A stretch of 53,623 nucleotides of DNA. Origin: Patescibacteria group bacterium. GTDB taxonomy: Bacteria > Patescibacteriota > Patescibacteriia > JACQRZ01. The position numbers and the translations under genes were made by a program. The DNA is taken from the NCBI GenBank assembly GCA_038065255.1, contig JBBTRI010000003.1:7048-60670 (forward strand), read 5' to 3'. The notes beneath the pieces were generated by a model. That model had not been told where the DNA came from. It saw only the letters and a program-made list of their open reading frames with translations, and ran no database searches. Positions 8,908 through 18,494 of this stretch are shown one piece after another. The stretch's first letter is position 1. The number at the start of each line of letters is the position of its first letter.

Positions 8908-11670
8908 TTATGCAAACGTGCGAAGTTGTTCTTCAATCTTGCCGCGTTTTGTCTTATATTCCTCGAGTTTCACCTGTTCGTGTTTCACGATATGTTCTGG
9001 CGCGCGGACGAGGAAATCCTTGTTCGAAAGCTGTTGTTCAAGTCTTTCAATTGCGGGATTAAGTGAAGCGATGTCTTTTTCGAGCCGTTCCCGCTCTTCT
9101 TCACGCTTTAAGAGTCCAAGTGGTAAGTAGATATCAATATCACCCTCTTTTATGTAAATAGCATTTGTTGGGCGATCCCCTTCACTAAGTATAGTAACAA
9201 TATCGAGTCGTGCAAGATACTTGATTATGGTAATATTCGACTCAATAAAGTTCGTCAGTGGCGTAAAAAAGACTGCCTGAATTTTTTGTGCAGGAGCTAT
9301 GGTGTTTTCTGCTCGAGCATTCCGGATTGCTTGGACAATCGCCATTAGTACAGAAAACGCAGCCTCGCTTTTGGTGTCAATATGTTTTGTGTCCACGCTT
9401 GGCCATGGATGGATCATGAGAAGAGTTGACTTGAGTTCTCGTTTGATATGAAAGCGCGATCTACTTTCTATTTCAATGATTGCAGGCGTGAGATGCTGAT
9501 AGATATGCTCAGTAACATAGGGCATAAACGGATGCCAGAGGGAAAGAAGTGTTTCAAGGAGATGCACAAGGAGATCATGTTTTCCTTGTTCGATTTTAGA
9601 TATCTCAATATACCAATCGGCAAGCTCATTCCATGTGAAATCGGTAAGGCGCTGTGCAGCCTGTGCAAAACGATACTGGTCGATATCTGCCGTAACGTCA
9701 GCTATGGTGCGGTTGAGTCTGCTGATAATCCAGCGATCAGCAAGCGTCAAAGCAATGTTTGTATGGTCGTGCTTTTTATGTTCTCCCTGCTGTATTGGCG
9801 TAAGAATGAAGCGGCTCACATTCCAGAGCTTGTTAACAAGGTTCCGATTCCGTTCAATTTTTTCCTTTCCTAGCTTAAGATTGTTTCCCGGAGTGGTACC
9901 AATCAGAAGAGCCATGCGCAGTGCGTCAGTGCCATGGGATACTATGAATTTCAAAGGGTCGATGCTCTGCTCTTCTTTTGATTTACTCATCTTTTTCCCT
10001 TCCGCATCCAACACAAGTCCATGAAGATAGACGGTATCAAAGGGCTGCTCTCCAAGGGCATAGCGCGTGAGGATAATCATGCGAGCAACCCAGAAAAAGA
10101 TAATATCATATGCTGTTTCAAGCACTGACGTCGGGTGGAATGTGGCCAGGTCGCCGGTTTTTTTTGATATTCCATGTTTATCAGTATGTATTGCATTCGG
10201 CCAGCCAAGCGTCGCGAAAGTCCACTGTCCTGCCGAAAACCACGTATCAAGTGTGTCTTCATCGCGAATAAGCACTTCTTTTTTACATGCTGTACATGCT
10301 TGAGTTGGCGTTACTGAGACGATTGTTTCTCCACAACCACCTTTCTGCTTGGTGCAATACCACACGGGGAGTTGGTGTCCAAACCAGATTTGTCGTGAGA
10401 TACACCAGTCCTTCAGGTTGGTAATCCACGCATTGTAAGTTTTTTCGAAGCGCTTTGGCACGATCTGAGTTTTCTTGGAAGCAACCGTATCGAGAGCAAG
10501 CTCTTTGAGCGAGGCATTGTATCGTTGGATTTTTTTATCAACAGCAACAAACCATTGGTGGGAAATCAACGGTTCTATGACAGTGTCACATCGGTAGCAG
10601 ATGGCTACAGCATGGTGGTACTCCTCCTTTTTTTCGAGTAAACCCTGTGCCTCAAGTTCGGTCACAATACGCTCGCGCGCATCAAACCGATCCATACCCT
10701 TAAACTGGTTGATTTGCGACGTATCAAGACCCTCTTTGAGAATGTCCACAAGAGTAATAGCCCCATGTTCATCGAGAATCTTAACAAACTCCAGATGGTA
10801 CTTTTTACCAAGTTCAAAGTCATTGAGGTCGTGGCTTGGTGTCACTTTGAGCGCACCACTCCCAAAATCCTTATCAACATAAGGATCTGCAATGACTACA
10901 ATTTCACGGCCTACAAGGGGTAGGCGCACTGTTCTTCCGGCAAATTGCGACCATCGGGTATCAGTAGGATTCACAGCAACAGCAGTATCGCCAAGCATTG
11001 TTTCCGGCCTGGTGGTCGCAATAGTGATTGCATCACCGCCATCATGCATGGGATACTTGATAAAATAAAGCATTCCCTGGACATCGCGGTGCTTTACCTC
11101 GTCATCTGCGAGTGTTGATGTGCATCGAGGGCACCAATTGACTATCCTAAATCCACGGTAAATAAGGCCATCGTTATACATTCGAACAAAGAGCTCATTT
11201 ACTGCATGCGAAAGGCCTTCATCAAGGGTATAGCGCTCCCTACTCCAGTCGCAACTAGCTCCCATCTTACGTATCTGATTTCTTATGGTTGAACGGGATT
11301 GTTCCACATAAGCAGTTACTCTTTTGATAAATTCCTCCCTTCCTAAGTCATGCCGGGTTATGCCTTCTACGGCGAGTAGTTTTTCCACTTTATTTTGAGT
11401 GGCAATTGATGCATGATCAGTGCCGGGAAGCCAGAGCGTTCTATCGCCAATCATTCTATGGTAACGAATCATTAAGTCCTGAAGAACAAGGCCAAGCGAA
11501 TGCCCAGTATGGAGTACACCCGTGGCATTAGGCGGAGGCATCATAATACTAAACGGGGTCTCTCGGTCTGGTAATGCATCAGGATTAAAAAAACCAGACT
11601 CTTCCCACCGCTTATAGATAGTATCCTCTATGTCTTGTGGAGAATATGTTTTTTGCAGTTCATCAGGCAT
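8908..11670 (-). CDS. valS: Valyl-tRNA synthetase
   Basis: 920 aa, normal length. Class I synthetase for valine. The N-terminal Rossmann half has PPPNATGVLHTGHSLG (HIGH region) and WLPGTDHASIATQNKVEK. The editing domain follows (TTRPETMLGDTAVAVNP). The KMSKS signature is GKKMSKSKEEQSIDP, after DILFFWVARM-like YDIIFFWVARMI. A helical anticodon-binding region and a C-terminal coiled-coil arm (EERERLEKDIASLNPAIERL) complete the bacterial ValRS plan. It heads a minus-strand operon with tyrS. The promoter is at 11716-11743, leaving a leader of about 39 nt. Confidence 0.97.
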   Translation of the reverse strand: MPDELQKTYSPQDIEDTIYKRWEESGFFNPDALPDRETPFSIMMPPPNATGVLHTGHSLGLVLQDLMIRYHRMIGDRTLWLPGTDHASIATQNKVEKLLAVEGITRHDLGREEFIKRVTAYVEQSRSTIRNQIRKMGASCDWSRERYTLDEGLSHAVNELFVRMYNDGLIYRGFRIVNWCPRCTSTLADDEVKHRDVQGMLYFIKYPMHDGGDAITIATTRPETMLGDTAVAVNPTDTRWSQFAGRTVRLPLVGREIVVIADPYVDKDFGSGALKVTPSHDLNDFELGKKYHLEFVKILDEHGAITLVDILKEGLDTSQINQFKGMDRFDARERIVTELEAQGLLEKKEEYHHAVAICYRCDTVIEPLISHQWFVAVDKKIQRYNASLKELALDTVASKKTQIVPKRFEKTYNAWITNLKDWCISRQIWFGHQLPVWYCTKQKGGCGETIVSVTPTQACTACKKEVLIRDEDTLDTWFSAGQWTFATLGWPNAIHTDKHGISKKTGDLATFHPTSVLETAYDIIFFWVARMIILTRYALGEQPFDTVYLHGLVLDAEGKKMSKSKEEQSIDPLKFIVSHGTDALRMALLIGTTPGNNLKLGKEKIERNRNLVNKLWNVSRFILTPIQQGEHKKHDHTNIALTLADRWIISRLNRTIADVTADIDQYRFAQAAQRLTDFTWNELADWYIEISKIEQGKHDLLVHLLETLLSLWHPFMPYVTEHIYQHLTPAIIEIESRSRFHIKRELKSTLLMIHPWPSVDTKHIDTKSEAAFSVLMAIVQAIRNARAENTIAPAQKIQAVFFTPLTNFIESNITIIKYLARLDIVTILSEGDRPTNAIYIKEGDIDIYLPLGLLKREEERERLEKDIASLNPAIERLEQQLSNKDFLVRAPEHIVKHEQVKLEEYKTKRGKIEEQLRTFA

Positions 11671-11715
11671 AGTAAATAAAACTTAACCTCTACTTTTTAA
11701 GGCTACTTTATCTTC

Positions 11716-11743
11716 ATTTTATCATATTGGAGCAAACGCACAA
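11716..11743 (-). promoter_or_regulatory. Promoter of the valS operon
   Basis: Minus strand: -35 TTGTGC (11738-11743), 16-bp spacer, extended -10 TGA-TAAAAT (11716-11724). Back to back with the tRNA-Ile promoter. Confidence 0.5.
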
Positions 11744-11746
11744 TAT

Positions 11747-11775
11747 TTGACCCAATCCATTATACTGAATATACT
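11747..11775 (+). promoter_or_regulatory. Promoter of tRNA-Ile(UAU)
   Basis: -35 TTGACC (11747-11752), 17-bp spacer, -10 TATACT (11770-11775). The predicted start is near 11782, 17 nt before the mature tRNA 5' end. Confidence 0.65.
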
Positions 11776-11798
11776 AATGATAATACATTTAGTCTAAC

Positions 11799-11872
11799 GG
11801 GCCAGTAGCTCAGCTGGTTAGAGCATTCGGCTTATATCCGAACGGTCGAAGGTTCGAATCCTTCCTGGCCCA
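11799..11872 (+). tRNA. tRNA-Ile, anticodon UAU
   Basis: Full cloverleaf: acceptor GGGCCAG (11799-11805) pairs with CTGGCCC (11865-11871), discriminator A. The D-arm is GCTC...GAGC, and the anticodon stem TTCGG/CCGAA encloses the loop CTTATAT. The T-arm GAAGG-TTCGAAT-CCTTC follows. The anticodon is therefore TAT, reading AUA (Ile). Most bacteria read AUA with a CAU anticodon modified to lysidine by TilS; a UAU anticodon is rare. No CCA is encoded. Confidence 0.93.
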
Positions 11873-11873
11873 T
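11855..11873 (+). repeat. 19-bp direct repeat, copy 1 (inside tRNA-Ile 3' end)
   Basis: CGAATCCTTCCTGGCCCAT, covering the end of the T-loop, the T-stem 3' strand, the acceptor 3' strand, the discriminator A and one T. An identical copy is at 12017-12035, 162 bp away. The layout resembles the att-type duplication left by elements that integrate at tRNA 3' ends. Confidence 0.9.
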
Positions 11874-12035
11874 GAGTAATTCGAGTGGACAGAGCAGTCC
11901 GAACTGCTTCGGACTGCGTGAGGATTCGAAGACCGCAGCGATGTTTGGCGAGCACGCCAAACCGCGAGGGGCGTCCTGCGAGCTCGCCGAAGCGACGGCG
12001 AGGCGAGACTTGTAGGCGAATCCTTCCTGGCCCAT
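11874..12035 (+). repeat. Palindrome-rich 162-bp unit bounded by tRNA 3'-end copies
   Basis: GC-rich against its AT-richer surroundings. It holds three consecutive hairpins: 11894-11903/11908-11917 (10-bp perfect stem, loop CTGC), 11943-11950/11955-11962 (8-bp perfect stem, loop AGCA), and 11983-11989/11996-12002 (7-bp perfect stem, 6-nt loop). It ends in a second copy of the tRNA 3' end (12017-12035). No integrase or other credible gene lies inside. It could be a tiny non-autonomous element, a processed RNA tail or a relic; the sequence alone cannot say. Confidence 0.7.
12017..12035 (+). repeat. 19-bp direct repeat, copy 2
   Basis: Identical to 11855-11873. The 5' half of a tRNA is missing here, so this is a fragment and not a second tRNA gene. 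Confidence 0.9.
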
Positions 12036-12072
12036 TTGAAAAAATGTCTTATTAGTCATAACCATTAGTTCT

Positions 12073-12828
12073 ATGGCAAGCTTCATTTTTTGGGGAATAC
12101 TGGCCGTTATAGCCCTTATAATTATGGGTTTTAGGGTTCTTAATCAGTATGAAAAGGGCATTATTTTAACGCTTGGACGATATTCAGGCACGCGAAATGC
12201 CGGCCTTACCTGGATATTTCCGGGCATTCAGACCATGCTAGTTGTTGATCTACGTCTTACGACAATAGATATACCTAAGCAAGAGGTTATAACCAAGGAT
12301 AATGTACCGGCATATATTAATGGCGTTGTTTACTTTAGCGTCTTGCAGCCGGAAAAAGCCGTCTTAGAAGTTAAAAATTATACATATGCAATTTCTCAGT
12401 ATGCTCAGGCAGCGCTTCGTGATGTGATCGGTGGCGTTGAGCTTGATGTATTGCTTTCAGAGCGGGATAAGATCTCAGATGCAATTGAACAGATTGTGGA
12501 GAAGGAAATATCCGGTTGGGGGATCAAGGTGAGTTCCATAAAAATTCAAGACATAGAACTCCCATCAGATATGAAGCGTTTGATGGCACAGCAGGCAGAG
12601 GCCGAACGAGAACGCAGGGCGGTAATTATTCGAGCAGAAGGTGAACTTACAGCATCAGAAAATATGAAAAAAGCGGCGGAAAATCTCACATCAGTTCGTG
12701 GTGGATTATCGCTTCGTACACTTACAACAATAGAAGCTTCAGAAAAATCAACGATATTTGTACTACCAATCGAATTTGTTGATGGTTTCAAGGCAATTAC
12801 TGATAAACTATCTCATAAGGAACACTAA
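12073..12828 (+). CDS. SPFH/band 7 family protein (slipin-like)
   Basis: 251 aa. Stomatin/slipin-type proteins scaffold membrane microdomains and often work with NfeD-like proteases, none of which is seen here. One N-terminal membrane segment (FIFWGILAVIALIIMGFRV, residues 4-22) is followed by the band 7 domain: YEKGIILTLGRYSGTRNAGL, then VDLRLTTIDIPKQEVITKDN and YAQAALRDVIGGVELDVLLS. A helical stretch rich in Ala/Glu/Arg (QQAEAERERRAVIIRAEGEL) is typical of the family's coiled coil. It is the first gene after the palindromic unit, 34 bp upstream of rnhB. Confidence 0.9.
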   Translation: MASFIFWGILAVIALIIMGFRVLNQYEKGIILTLGRYSGTRNAGLTWIFPGIQTMLVVDLRLTTIDIPKQEVITKDNVPAYINGVVYFSVLQPEKAVLEVKNYTYAISQYAQAALRDVIGGVELDVLLSERDKISDAIEQIVEKEISGWGIKVSSIKIQDIELPSDMKRLMAQQAEAERERRAVIIRAEGELTASENMKKAAENLTSVRGGLSLRTLTTIEASEKSTIFVLPIEFVDGFKAITDKLSHKEH

Positions 12829-15034: not shown

Positions 15035-16245
15035 TTTTAGTCAACCAAAATATGAAACAAAAATTCCTCCGGTTTGTTTCAAAAGCAGCGATGTTCACAG
15101 CATCGACTGGCTTAGTGTTTTCCTCGCTTGCCCCTATGGCAGCGCATGCGGCCGTCATTACATCAATGAAGGATCAGATGTCACGCATTCAGGAAACCGT
15201 TACCTCTGACCATACGTTTACCATAACAACTGCAACCGCATGGAATGAAGCAGCTGCAAATACGATTATTTTTAAGTTCGAAGCAGGCTTTTTAGCAGGT
15301 GGCGCAACATCAACTTGGTCAACTGATGATTTTAGGTATGATGGTTTTACTACGGCCGATTCTGCCGTCACGGCTGTTAATGCAGTTGTCGATACGGCAT
15401 TGGAAACTGGCGATTTTCCAACATGCGGATCTGGTGTCATTGTGGCAGTAGCCCAAACTGTGAACGACAGTACTGGTAGCGTCAGAGAAATCGGTTTTAG
15501 AAAGTGTACAGGCGCTACAACCGATGCGGTAGGTGCTCAAATATTCTATATCTACGGAGGCACCGCAGCTCATATGGGCAGTGGTACGGGTACTGCTGGT
15601 ACTATCACAAATCCATCAGCGGGATCTAAAACGATCACTATTACCCAAGGTGCTGCTGTAGCAGCCACAGATTCCGGCAGTATGGTTCTTACTACTGTTA
15701 GTGATGATACTGCCGGAGCTTCAGGAACTGTGAGTCCCTATCTCACTGCTACTATATCCGCGCCCAGCGCTTCACTTACACTTACTCAAGATACAGTCGG
15801 CACTGCAAGTGGTGGGTCGGTGACAATTGATACGAATGCGCCAACCGGCTATGTATTCCGCATCCATGGAACAGGCAATGGCACGGGTGTTCCAGGCAAT
15901 GGCACAGGAGGTCTTTATGCATCGTCGCTTACCGGAACCGGTGGTACGGGTATTGTTACATCAGCTACCGTGGCAGATGGCAGTGTTGCAGGTACTGCAA
16001 CAGGCTATGGGCTGTCCGCAACAAGAACAGGAGAAGCGACAACCGTAGAAACAAACTATAGTCATACTAATGCAACCACCACTGGCTGGGGGGCTGTTTC
16101 AACATCGTGGACCGACGTTGTAACACAAACAGCAGAGGCGACAAATGATGTTGTTACAATTACATTCAAAGCAAAAGTTGATTATTCCGTGAGTCCTGGA
16201 ACCTATAGCGATACTGTGTATTACAACGTGTACGCTACGTTTTAA
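15035..16245 (+). repeat. 1,211-bp perfect direct repeat, copy 1
   Basis: From TTTTAGTCAACCAAAAT upstream of the ATG to the TAA of the 397-aa gene. It is identical to 17284-18494 (offset 2,249). Flanks differ immediately on both sides. No inverted ends or transposase are present. Confidence 0.97.
15052..16245 (+). CDS. Secreted surface protein, WxL/SipW-like C-terminal beta domain (copy 1)
   Basis: 397 aa. A signal peptide ends around residue 34 (LVFSSLAPMAAHAA). The mature protein opens with SMKDQMSRIQETVTSDHTFT, a module that recurs in the next two large surface proteins (LSDALSRL...PSDH and ASIPSDHTITF). Residues ~35-210 form this N-terminal module, with two cysteines. The C-terminal half is a Thr/Ser/Gly-rich beta region: ATISAPSASLTLTQDTVG, APTGYVFRIHGTGNG, then FKAKVDYSVSPGTYSDTVYY. 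This ending resembles the last strands of WxL, spore-coat-U or pilin-like domains. Lysine is nearly absent after the signal. No membrane anchor is seen, so it is secreted or held by other proteins. A structural surface role is an inference. Confidence 0.7.
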   Translation: MKQKFLRFVSKAAMFTASTGLVFSSLAPMAAHAAVITSMKDQMSRIQETVTSDHTFTITTATAWNEAAANTIIFKFEAGFLAGGATSTWSTDDFRYDGFTTADSAVTAVNAVVDTALETGDFPTCGSGVIVAVAQTVNDSTGSVREIGFRKCTGATTDAVGAQIFYIYGGTAAHMGSGTGTAGTITNPSAGSKTITITQGAAVAATDSGSMVLTTVSDDTAGASGTVSPYLTATISAPSASLTLTQDTVGTASGGSVTIDTNAPTGYVFRIHGTGNGTGVPGNGTGGLYASSLTGTGGTGIVTSATVADGSVAGTATGYGLSATRTGEATTVETNYSHTNATTTGWGAVSTSWTDVVTQTAEATNDVVTITFKAKVDYSVSPGTYSDTVYYNVYATF

Positions 16246-16272
16246 AGCATTAAAGCACCTTAGACCATAACC

Positions 16273-16278
16273 TATAAT
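16273..16278 (+). promoter_or_regulatory. Candidate -10 element for the DUF916-like gene
   Basis: TATAAT at 16273-16278. The predicted start near 16285 lies after the in-frame ATG at 16282, which favours the ATG at 16291 as the real start. The -35 is weak (TTAAAG at 16250). Confidence 0.5.
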
Positions 16279-16290
16279 CCCATGCTTAAT

Positions 16291-17211
16291 ATGAAACTAA
16301 CTCGATTGCTTTGTCTCGCTTTTGTTTCAATGTTGTTTAGTTTTCTCTTTGCTACTCAAGCTCTTGCTCTAAGAATAGCCCCTACTGTTGTTGAACTTTC
16401 AACTCTTCCCGGGGAGCCGGTTGCAGGTTTCTTTCAGGTCGTCAATAATGAACAGTCACCTCTGACTCTTACACCAACAATCTATGAAGCCGTTCCAAGT
16501 GTTAGTGATGAAAAAGGTTTTGCCAGTATTGTTGCACCTACACAAAATTCTACATTAGCAAATTGGATAAAGCTCGATGAAACCATTTTGCTTCAACCGG
16601 GTGAAAAAAAAGATATACGGTTTATTGTCACTGTTCCTCAAAATGCGCCGCCCGGCGGGCACTATGCTGCGATTTCATTGAGTCAGCCAGCAACAACACC
16701 ATCGGGTTCCGGTGCGGCAATTGTTCCTCAGTTGACGGTGAATGTCGCGCTTGATATTGCAGGTGAATCTATTGAAAAAGCAGATATTGTAAGTTTTAAG
16801 ACCGAGAGTGGAAAAACAAATTTCGATAAGTTGCCGGTGAAATTTTTTGCACGATTGCATAACGGTGGCAATAGACACTTTAGGCCTACGGGTGCTGTGG
16901 TAATCAAAAATATGTTTGGCAGTACCGTTGCGGAATTGCCAATTAAAACTCAAGATGCAGGTGGTAATATTTTACCGGGCAGTACGCGTCAGTATGATTT
17001 TGACTGGGTAGGAGAATTTGCATTTGGGAAATATACGGCAATGTTCAGTGCAGATCTTGGTGGTGCAGGTACAAAAGCAGCAAGTATTGAACTATGGGTT
17101 ATGCCCGCAGGACTTCTTGTTCTCTGGCTTATTATTGCCTTAATTATCATTGTTATACTTGTACTGCTTATTAAACGTGCAGTTTCATCGTCTAGTGCAC
17201 TGAAAAAATAG
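16291..17211 (+). CDS. Membrane-anchored DUF916/WxLIP-like protein
   Basis: 306 aa from the ATG at 16291 (MKLTRLLCLAFVS), preferred because the -10 element predicts a transcript starting after the ATG at 16282. A signal peptide ends near ATQALA. Residues ~28-140 are an Ig-like domain: RIAPTVVELSTLPGEPVAGF and VVNNEQSPLTLTPTI, then LLQPGEKKDIRFIVTVP and APPGGHYAAISLSQP. This is close to the DUF916 (WxL-interacting protein) pattern of V-N...L-P-G-E-x...P-x-G-x-Y. A second beta domain (~150-270) precedes one TM helix (AGLLVLWLIIALIIIVILVL) and a short basic tail. It lies exactly between the two identical copies of the 397-aa secreted protein, which suggests a membrane partner for them. The family call is by eye. 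Confidence 0.7.
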   Translation: MKLTRLLCLAFVSMLFSFLFATQALALRIAPTVVELSTLPGEPVAGFFQVVNNEQSPLTLTPTIYEAVPSVSDEKGFASIVAPTQNSTLANWIKLDETILLQPGEKKDIRFIVTVPQNAPPGGHYAAISLSQPATTPSGSGAAIVPQLTVNVALDIAGESIEKADIVSFKTESGKTNFDKLPVKFFARLHNGGNRHFRPTGAVVIKNMFGSTVAELPIKTQDAGGNILPGSTRQYDFDWVGEFAFGKYTAMFSADLGGAGTKAASIELWVMPAGLLVLWLIIALIIIVILVLLIKRAVSSSSALKK

Positions 17212-17245
17212 AAACTTGTCTACTGGTGTTTTATTAGAAAAGGAG

Positions 17246-17275
17246 GAGTTCTTAAATTATAGGAACTCTTCTTTG
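17246..17275 (+). terminator. Terminator between the DUF916-like gene and surface protein copy 2
   Basis: GAGTTC (17246-17251), AT-rich loop, GAACTC (17263-17268), then TTCTTTG. The U-tract is short. The sequence lies just upstream of the second repeat copy, where no strong promoter is visible. Confidence 0.5.
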
Positions 17276-17283
17276 ATTAAGAG

Positions 17284-18494
17284 TTTTAGTCAACCAAAAT
17301 ATGAAACAAAAATTCCTCCGGTTTGTTTCAAAAGCAGCGATGTTCACAGCATCGACTGGCTTAGTGTTTTCCTCGCTTGCCCCTATGGCAGCGCATGCGG
17401 CCGTCATTACATCAATGAAGGATCAGATGTCACGCATTCAGGAAACCGTTACCTCTGACCATACGTTTACCATAACAACTGCAACCGCATGGAATGAAGC
17501 AGCTGCAAATACGATTATTTTTAAGTTCGAAGCAGGCTTTTTAGCAGGTGGCGCAACATCAACTTGGTCAACTGATGATTTTAGGTATGATGGTTTTACT
17601 ACGGCCGATTCTGCCGTCACGGCTGTTAATGCAGTTGTCGATACGGCATTGGAAACTGGCGATTTTCCAACATGCGGATCTGGTGTCATTGTGGCAGTAG
17701 CCCAAACTGTGAACGACAGTACTGGTAGCGTCAGAGAAATCGGTTTTAGAAAGTGTACAGGCGCTACAACCGATGCGGTAGGTGCTCAAATATTCTATAT
17801 CTACGGAGGCACCGCAGCTCATATGGGCAGTGGTACGGGTACTGCTGGTACTATCACAAATCCATCAGCGGGATCTAAAACGATCACTATTACCCAAGGT
17901 GCTGCTGTAGCAGCCACAGATTCCGGCAGTATGGTTCTTACTACTGTTAGTGATGATACTGCCGGAGCTTCAGGAACTGTGAGTCCCTATCTCACTGCTA
18001 CTATATCCGCGCCCAGCGCTTCACTTACACTTACTCAAGATACAGTCGGCACTGCAAGTGGTGGGTCGGTGACAATTGATACGAATGCGCCAACCGGCTA
18101 TGTATTCCGCATCCATGGAACAGGCAATGGCACGGGTGTTCCAGGCAATGGCACAGGAGGTCTTTATGCATCGTCGCTTACCGGAACCGGTGGTACGGGT
18201 ATTGTTACATCAGCTACCGTGGCAGATGGCAGTGTTGCAGGTACTGCAACAGGCTATGGGCTGTCCGCAACAAGAACAGGAGAAGCGACAACCGTAGAAA
18301 CAAACTATAGTCATACTAATGCAACCACCACTGGCTGGGGGGCTGTTTCAACATCGTGGACCGACGTTGTAACACAAACAGCAGAGGCGACAAATGATGT
18401 TGTTACAATTACATTCAAAGCAAAAGTTGATTATTCCGTGAGTCCTGGAACCTATAGCGATACTGTGTATTACAACGTGTACGCTACGTTTTAA
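17284..18494 (+). repeat. 1,211-bp perfect direct repeat, copy 2
   Basis: Identical to 15035-16245. The gap between copies is 1,038 bp and holds the DUF916-like gene. Confidence 0.97.
17301..18494 (+). CDS. Secreted surface protein, WxL/SipW-like C-terminal beta domain (copy 2)
   Basis: 397 aa, identical to copy 1 in nucleotide and protein sequence, including 17 bp before the start codon. Domain plan as in copy 1: signal peptide to about residue 34, SDHT module, then a Thr/Gly-rich beta domain ending DTVYYNVYATF. Unlike copy 1, it has no obvious promoter of its own: only a hairpin-T tract (17246-17275) lies between it and the preceding gene. The perfect identity implies very recent duplication, ongoing gene conversion, or an assembly error. 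It ends 62 bp before the 881-aa surface protein. Confidence 0.7.
   Translation: MKQKFLRFVSKAAMFTASTGLVFSSLAPMAAHAAVITSMKDQMSRIQETVTSDHTFTITTATAWNEAAANTIIFKFEAGFLAGGATSTWSTDDFRYDGFTTADSAVTAVNAVVDTALETGDFPTCGSGVIVAVAQTVNDSTGSVREIGFRKCTGATTDAVGAQIFYIYGGTAAHMGSGTGTAGTITNPSAGSKTITITQGAAVAATDSGSMVLTTVSDDTAGASGTVSPYLTATISAPSASLTLTQDTVGTASGGSVTIDTNAPTGYVFRIHGTGNGTGVPGNGTGGLYASSLTGTGGTGIVTSATVADGSVAGTATGYGLSATRTGEATTVETNYSHTNATTTGWGAVSTSWTDVVTQTAEATNDVVTITFKAKVDYSVSPGTYSDTVYYNVYATF

Follow-up and report, generated by a model that had tools for sequence, protein, structure and literature searches.

A DUF916/WxLIP-superfamily membrane protein genomically paired with secreted proteins of a separate C-terminal domain family in Patescibacteria

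The window analysed here is the whole of a 53,623-nucleotide (nt) stretch of DNA from a Patescibacteria group bacterium (assembly GCA_038065255.1, contig JBBTRI010000003.1, positions 7,048 to 60,670), the source genome being 1.09 Mb in 27 contigs and 99.1% complete, values that agree with a lineage of the candidate phyla radiation. In this window, gene B, for a membrane-anchored protein, lies between two identical genes, A1 and A2, for a secreted protein, A. B is a protein of the DUF916/WxLIP superfamily, not a canonical WxLIP, and its coupling with A is strong across the phylum; the two make up a surface pair that is a genuine and widespread variant of the WxL/WxLIP kind. The first-pass annotation had proposed a possible WxL-like system at positions 15052–17211, an interval that covers the first A gene and B and leaves the second, identical A gene outside. 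The proposal stands for the superfamily of B and for the A–B pairing, and is not supported for A as a WxL domain.

Little is known of the ways in which ultrasmall, mostly host-dependent bacteria mount surface proteins and attach themselves to partners. The A–B pair is widespread in the phylum, and the A domain has no Pfam family. Among openly licensed papers, none was found that describes a WxL or strand-donation surface pair for this lineage (the candidate phyla radiation, CPR/Patescibacteria), and a single review, of 2013, mentions both donor strands and WxL. If the mechanism proposed below holds, the pair would serve these bacteria for surface display or fibre formation and would link Gram-positive WxL systems with pilus chaperones.

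Identity and predicted fold of B

B carries LQPGEKKDIRFIVTVP and PPGGHYAAISLSQ; its N-terminus has a signal-like segment and its C-terminus a hydrophobic helix. The profile of the B family identified the solved structure of EfmWxLIP1 (PDB entries 9i25 and 9i1y) with an E value of 2.5e-6. Profile–profile alignment of the B family with seven WxLIP/DUF916 sequences was performed using hhalign and gave a probability of 99.4% (E = 1.7e-21) over 230 columns spanning both domains, against 3.7% for the reversed control. PF06030, which describes the first domain of WxLIP, matched 29 of 41 B relatives at E ≤ 0.1 (best E value 1.1e-9). When B of the window was used as a tblastn query against plasmids, seven records were matched, six of which are annotated as DUF916. 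A hydrophobic segment past residue 200 is present in 61 of the 63 B relatives.

The top structural match of the predicted B fold was chain C of 9i25, the Enterococcus WxLIP bound to a long WxL protein (Z = 15.3; 224 residues aligned with a root-mean-square deviation, r.m.s.d., of 7.3). The model also matched, in fold only, the PapD-type chaperones CsuC (6fq0_C; Z = 12.7, r.m.s.d. 4.5, 181 residues aligned) and CfaA (4ncd; Z = 12.6, r.m.s.d. 5.7, 195 residues aligned), as well as Vibrio RbmA (Z = 12.5). The profile and fold comparisons thus place B with WxLIP, not with an unrelated fold, and bear out the earlier description of a membrane-anchored DUF916-like protein. B was classed as a superfamily member and not as a canonical WxLIP because two features are missing despite these matches. 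DUF3324 (PF11797) was found by hidden Markov model in none of the 95 related genomes and not in B (a Lactococcus lactis control was positive), and B also lacks NQIDKxxxYFDLK, which is given as a conserved motif of WxLIP in the available text of PMC10599100.

A B-like protein with 28% identity is encoded in Sphingobacteriaceae bacterium DW12 (L098:6001-6795), in the vicinity of a small pilin-like protein and of a 936-residue protein that looks usher-like by eye. This locus is a hint at kinship between DUF916-type proteins and the chaperones of Bacteroidota.

Genomic pairing of A and B

B relatives were identified in 55 of the 95 related genomes. Pairing was assessed using profiles because a plain sequence search with A of the window reached only two other genomes of the 95. 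An A-domain gene lies directly upstream on the same strand of 50 of the 63 B relatives (with tandem B genes skipped) and at most four genes away in 52. At loci that had not contributed to the A profile, the corresponding numbers were ten and 11 of 19. An earlier regular expression had picked out 30 of 44 upstream genes and 11 of 245 background open reading frames (ORFs), and had missed A of the window; the profile count was used instead. All counts refer to genes recovered: the ORF caller passed over B in L078, probably because of the way it handles overlaps, and called no B in L048, L055 and L073.

Across the phylum (286 genomes searched), B was found in 127 genomes and the A domain in 102; both were found in 100 genomes (45 expected), so that all but two A-positive genomes also hold B. 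Among the 30 best phylum B loci, five of which come from genomes used in profile building, the A domain was upstream in 26, and at one of the four loci without it no more than 223 nt of sequence lie upstream. The first-pass annotation had named unrelated folds or a lack of co-occurrence as outcomes that would speak against it; neither arose, since B belongs to the DUF916/WxLIP superfamily and A and B are coupled across the phylum. The outer-membrane usher (PF00577) was detected in none of the 95 genomes, with a positive Escherichia coli control.

The C-terminal domain of A

Both 397-residue A proteins that flank B end in FKAKVDYSVSPGTYSDTVYYNVYATF, in agreement with the earlier observation of two secreted proteins with like endings. 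A of the window has no match in Pfam or NCBIfam and no W-x-L, as had been noted. The A domain, of about 170–200 residues, is C-terminal and forms a family of its own, with which 74 ORFs of the fetched loci end. The alignment comprised 69 rows of these 74 (L064, L053:2-616, L038, L051:11482-12096 and L054:1581-2195 were left out), and its profile matches A1 and A2, each at E = 1.7e-28. By length, 76 distinct A-domain ORFs were sorted into 11 small, 55 medium and ten large; A-domain proteins thus come small and large, in parallel with small and large WxL proteins. The last residue of the domain is F or Y in 65 of 69 sequences, and Y is found at position −13 in 66.

None of the 69 A domains matched PF13731 (WxL) at E ≤ 0.1 and none has W-x-L within the last 25 residues, whereas ten of 12 reference WxL sequences do. 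Alignment of the A profile with the 12 reference sequences in hhalign was confined to the last 23 columns (E = 0.0072, probability 5.4%; reversed controls in a parallel run, 0.3%), a profile likeness that is suggestive at the last strand. Searches of Pfam with 37 full-length or 69 C-terminal A relatives returned only isolated weak matches, in one member each. The C-terminal A profile had no match among PDB sequences; the full-length profile had three (E = 0.13–0.19), one of which is CFA/I fimbrial subunit E.

The A-domain model (m12fb389115bf, residues 37–205 used) was computed on the identical copy at 17877–18491. Its best Foldseek match was CfaB (E = 4.1e-3). Of the 50 highest-ranking VIA rows, 42 were chaperone–usher pilin or adhesin chains, as judged by title, with Z = 6.2–7.8, where VIA flags values of 6–8 as possibly just a common arrangement. 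Two of the other eight rows were TLP-1 (Z = 8.0 and 7.9); cannulae or tubes accounted for three more, enzymes for two and an archaeal pilus for the last. The WxL chain 9i25_A was not among the top 50 matches in either Foldseek or VIA; these lists are short, so that a WxL-like fold is still compatible with them. Among viral structures, the best match had an E value no lower than 7e-3. Four entries (6fqa, 6fq0, 6k73 and 6fjy) hold both A-like pilins and B-like chaperones. The C-terminal domain of A is therefore predicted, at moderate scores, to resemble chaperone–usher pilins, and a pilin-like reading of A is at least as well supported as a WxL identity.

Relatives with WxL and cohesin–dockerin neighbours

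One genome of the same class (G051) encodes a 580-residue B relative in which PF06030 (41.6 bits) and LysM (41.7 bits) both score over the cut-off. Three tandem small PF13731 proteins (25.1–28.7 bits, over the cut-off) are encoded upstream, separated from the B relative by two genes; G051 was the only one of the 95 genomes with PF13731. The three proteins, aligned together with two plasmid proteins from Arthrobacter and Clavibacter, gave 96.8% against canonical WxL. In Paenibacillus urinalis, the protein annotated as WxL that comes after a DUF916 protein found with B of the window ends in AGTYKSVFTYTATSGI, an ending of the same kind as that of A. Canonical clusters of Enterococcus mundtii have the order WxL–WxLIP–WxL, parallel to A–B–A.

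A dockerin type I gene stands right after B and is followed by a cohesin gene in L046, L061, L068, L071 and L074, all over the Pfam cut-offs. A dockerin gene also follows B in L062, and in L049 there is a dockerin match below the cut-off. Dockerin and cohesin beside the A–B pair may form a cellulosome-like adaptor. In the window itself, A2 and then an fn3 protein occupy the place at which these relatives have dockerin and cohesin.

Organization of the locus

The coordinates of the features are given in Table 1. A1 and A2 are base-for-base identical within a 1,211-bp repeat, from 17 nt 5′ of the ATG to the stop codon, and the flanks of the repeat are unrelated (identity at background, 11–18 of 50 positions). 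The repeat may be a recent duplication, a gene conversion or an assembly artefact; the sample of 95 relatives held no other member of the genus. A search of the source genome found A1 and A2 as the only full-length copies of A. A third A-domain protein, of the small type (240 residues), is encoded on contig C12 (L114:1498-2220), away from B; its N-terminal region has NY repeats, as in small A proteins elsewhere. Several copies of A near B also occur in L063, L050, L071 and L040, but are diverged there.

The gap between A1 and B is 36 nt and lacks structure. The stretch around the hairpin that follows B folds at −22.5 kcal/mol (z = −2.8), and equally good folds were obtained in two of 200 shuffles. 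The hairpin was not flagged by the terminator scan, and the promoter and terminator scans of the window gave site numbers about as in shuffles, with no excess. Because the gap is short and unstructured and a hairpin follows B, A1 and B may form one transcription unit, of which the hairpin is possibly the end. The two large secreted proteins encoded beyond A2 (884 and 1887 residues) have related N-terminal regions (score 168, against no more than 59 in shuffles); the N-terminal region of A is perhaps related to these as well, with scores at the edge of the shuffles.

Table 1. Features of the A–B locus in the window and of one related locus
Feature	Position	Strand	Remark
A1-bearing repeat, copy 1	15035..16245	+	17 nt upstream of ATG to A1 stop codon; same as 17284-18494
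A1, secreted, 397 residues	15052..16245	+	Signal peptide, N-terminal beta region, C-terminal A domain
C-terminal A domain of A1 (same in A2)	15736..16242	+	Predicted pilin-like beta sandwich, ends G-x-Y...F
B, secreted, C-terminally membrane-anchored, DUF916/WxLIP-like, 309 residues	16282..17211	+
B first domain (residues 28-160)	16363..16761	+	Matches WxLIP peptidoglycan-binding (DUF916) domain
B second immunoglobulin (Ig)-like domain (residues 165-273)	16774..17100	+	Aligns with second (HBD/DUF3324) half of WxLIP
B C-terminal transmembrane helix (residues 276-303)	17107..17190	+	Helix 686-713 of the read-through model
15-bp RNA hairpin 3′ of B	17240..17274	+	Fold of stretch 17205-17290
A2-bearing repeat, copy 2	17284..18494	+	Exact 1,211-bp repeat
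A2, second, identical A gene, 397 residues	17301..18494	+
Secreted protein, 884 residues, fn3, C-terminal transmembrane segment	18548..21202	+	Next gene past A2
Secreted multi-domain protein, 1887 residues	21234..26897	+	Five PKD stretches
WxLIP-like protein with fused LysM; three small WxL (PF13731) proteins in tandem nearby	L078:6263-8005 and 10324-12114

Proposed mechanism and alternatives

We infer physical contact between A and B, strand complementation and a role in display, and propose, with a probability of about 0.6, that the two proteins form a two-part surface system in which B, by complementing a strand, serves as a holder or chaperone for A at the membrane. Judged by their signal-like N-termini, both proteins would be exported. 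The C-terminal helix of B would keep it in the cytoplasmic membrane, and B would present two tandem Ig-like domains, built like those of WxLIP and of PapD-type pilus chaperones. The C-terminal Ig-like domain of A is probably incomplete; B would lend it a strand, so that A would be folded, held and displayed on the cell surface by B, with the variable N-terminal part of A facing outward. A candidate donor strand is the conserved strand at residues 151–159 of the B family, in which hydrophobic residues largely alternate. Pilus chaperones complete pilins by lending a strand in a like manner. In the WxLIP–WxL modelling reported in the available text of PMC10599100, the WxL sandwich is completed by a WxLIP strand that takes on order and runs parallel to a strand of WxL.

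Several observations weigh against this proposal. B of the window scored 16.9 bits with PF06030, below the cut-off of 27.3, and alignment of the B family with canonical WxLIP leaves a gap at the place of NQIDKxxxYFDLK. In 13 of the 63 B relatives an A-domain gene was not called directly upstream; four of these (L062, L089, L091 and L096) have a similar C-terminal ending upstream, beyond the reach of the profile, and one (L087) sits at a contig end. The hypergeometric P of 9e-49 for the co-occurrence of A and B ignores the relatedness of the genomes. The predicted A domain is of moderate quality (predicted local distance difference test, pLDDT, 77; predicted template modelling score, pTM, 0.71; a disordered stretch is included), and its pilin matches lie in the range that VIA flags. 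When A and B were modelled as one read-through polypeptide, the B part folded well and the A part moderately, and at a pTM of 0.45 an interface was not demonstrated.

A possible, though doubtful, alternative is ordinary WxL-type anchoring, in which the A domain would be a diverged WxL domain that sits on peptidoglycan and is stabilized by B. The gene order is that of the canonical E. mundtii clusters, the Paenibacillus WxL protein beside DUF916 has the A-like ending AGTYKSVFTYTATSGI, PF13731 proteins are encoded near B in G051, and the sole stretch of A that aligned to WxL was the last strand. However, PF13731 and a terminal W-x-L were both missing from all 69 A domains; the absence of 9i25_A from the top 50 fold matches listed is compatible with either reading.

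It is unlikely that the locus encodes an usher-free pilus, with B as a membrane-tethered chaperone and A polymerizing into fibres by donor-strand exchange (compare chaperone–usher pili, TasA and archaeal threads). Such a pilus would suit the fold neighbours of the A domain, which are mainly donor-strand subunits together with archaeal filament and cannula proteins, the PapD-like fold of B, the lack of a detectable usher in the 95 genomes and the tandem A copies around B at several loci; as far as the available texts go, precedents without an usher are TapA/TasA (PMC10151520) and archaeal threads (PMC9715654). Set against it are the moderate fold scores, the lack of an identified donor strand in A and the large A-domain proteins (about 600–1900 residues), which look like displayed adhesins and not like fibre subunits.

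In a quite improbable reading, A would be an envelope protein, S-layer-like or of another kind, next to an independent Ig membrane protein B, with the gene order kept for co-expression only. This would suit a contact between A and B that is so far inferred, and the weak N-terminal likeness of A to its large neighbours, by which the genes here may belong to a surface cluster of a general kind; but the pair recurs and co-occurs in many genomes and B is homologous to a solved partner-binding protein.

Comparison with known systems

Among the known systems closest to the proposed two-part system, in which B would complement A, are the WxL/WxLIP systems of Lactobacillales and Bacillales, the two orders to which WxL proteins are almost confined according to the available text of PMC10599100. 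The two tandem Ig-like domains and C-terminal transmembrane helix of B match WxLIP in profile and structure, the A–B–A order parallels small WxL–WxLIP–large WxL, and in both systems small and large partners have a common C-terminal domain of similar size. They differ in that A is without W-x-L and without a PF13731 match, that B of the window is under the PF06030 cut-off and has neither a PF11797 match nor NQIDKxxxYFDLK, and that dockerin and cohesin genes follow the pair in some relatives here; the lineage is also another one.

With the archaeal threads and cannulae, the likeness lies in strand-complemented threads for which no usher is identified in the part of PMC9715654 that was available, and in the cannula and archaeal bundling-pilus proteins among the fold matches of the A domain. 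According to the same partial source, the thread cluster has no definite chaperone gene, whereas B is a candidate chaperone or holder here. The TasA/TapA fibres of Bacillus subtilis offer, by description only, a Gram-positive accessory protein that donates a strand to a secreted beta-sandwich protein. TapA, however, is described in the available text of PMC10151520 as one complete V-set Ig fold that donates its N-terminus, whereas B has two WxLIP-like domains.

Chaperone–usher pili (PapD, FimC, CsuC and CfaA) share with the pair the two-Ig chaperone fold of B, and pilins are the nearest folds of the A domain; the pair differs from them in the lack of an usher in the 95 genomes, the membrane anchor of B and the only moderate fold match of A. 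We tentatively suggest that an usher-free, membrane-tethered chaperone–subunit route might build surface structures in these bacteria, with B as a chaperone of the WxLIP/PapD type, anchored in the single membrane, and A-domain proteins as strand-complemented subunits. If this were so, the WxL/WxLIP pair and chaperone–usher pili would be two branches of one strand-donation principle, and the route would be present in more than 40% of the sampled genomes of the phylum, in places coupled to a cohesin–dockerin adaptor.

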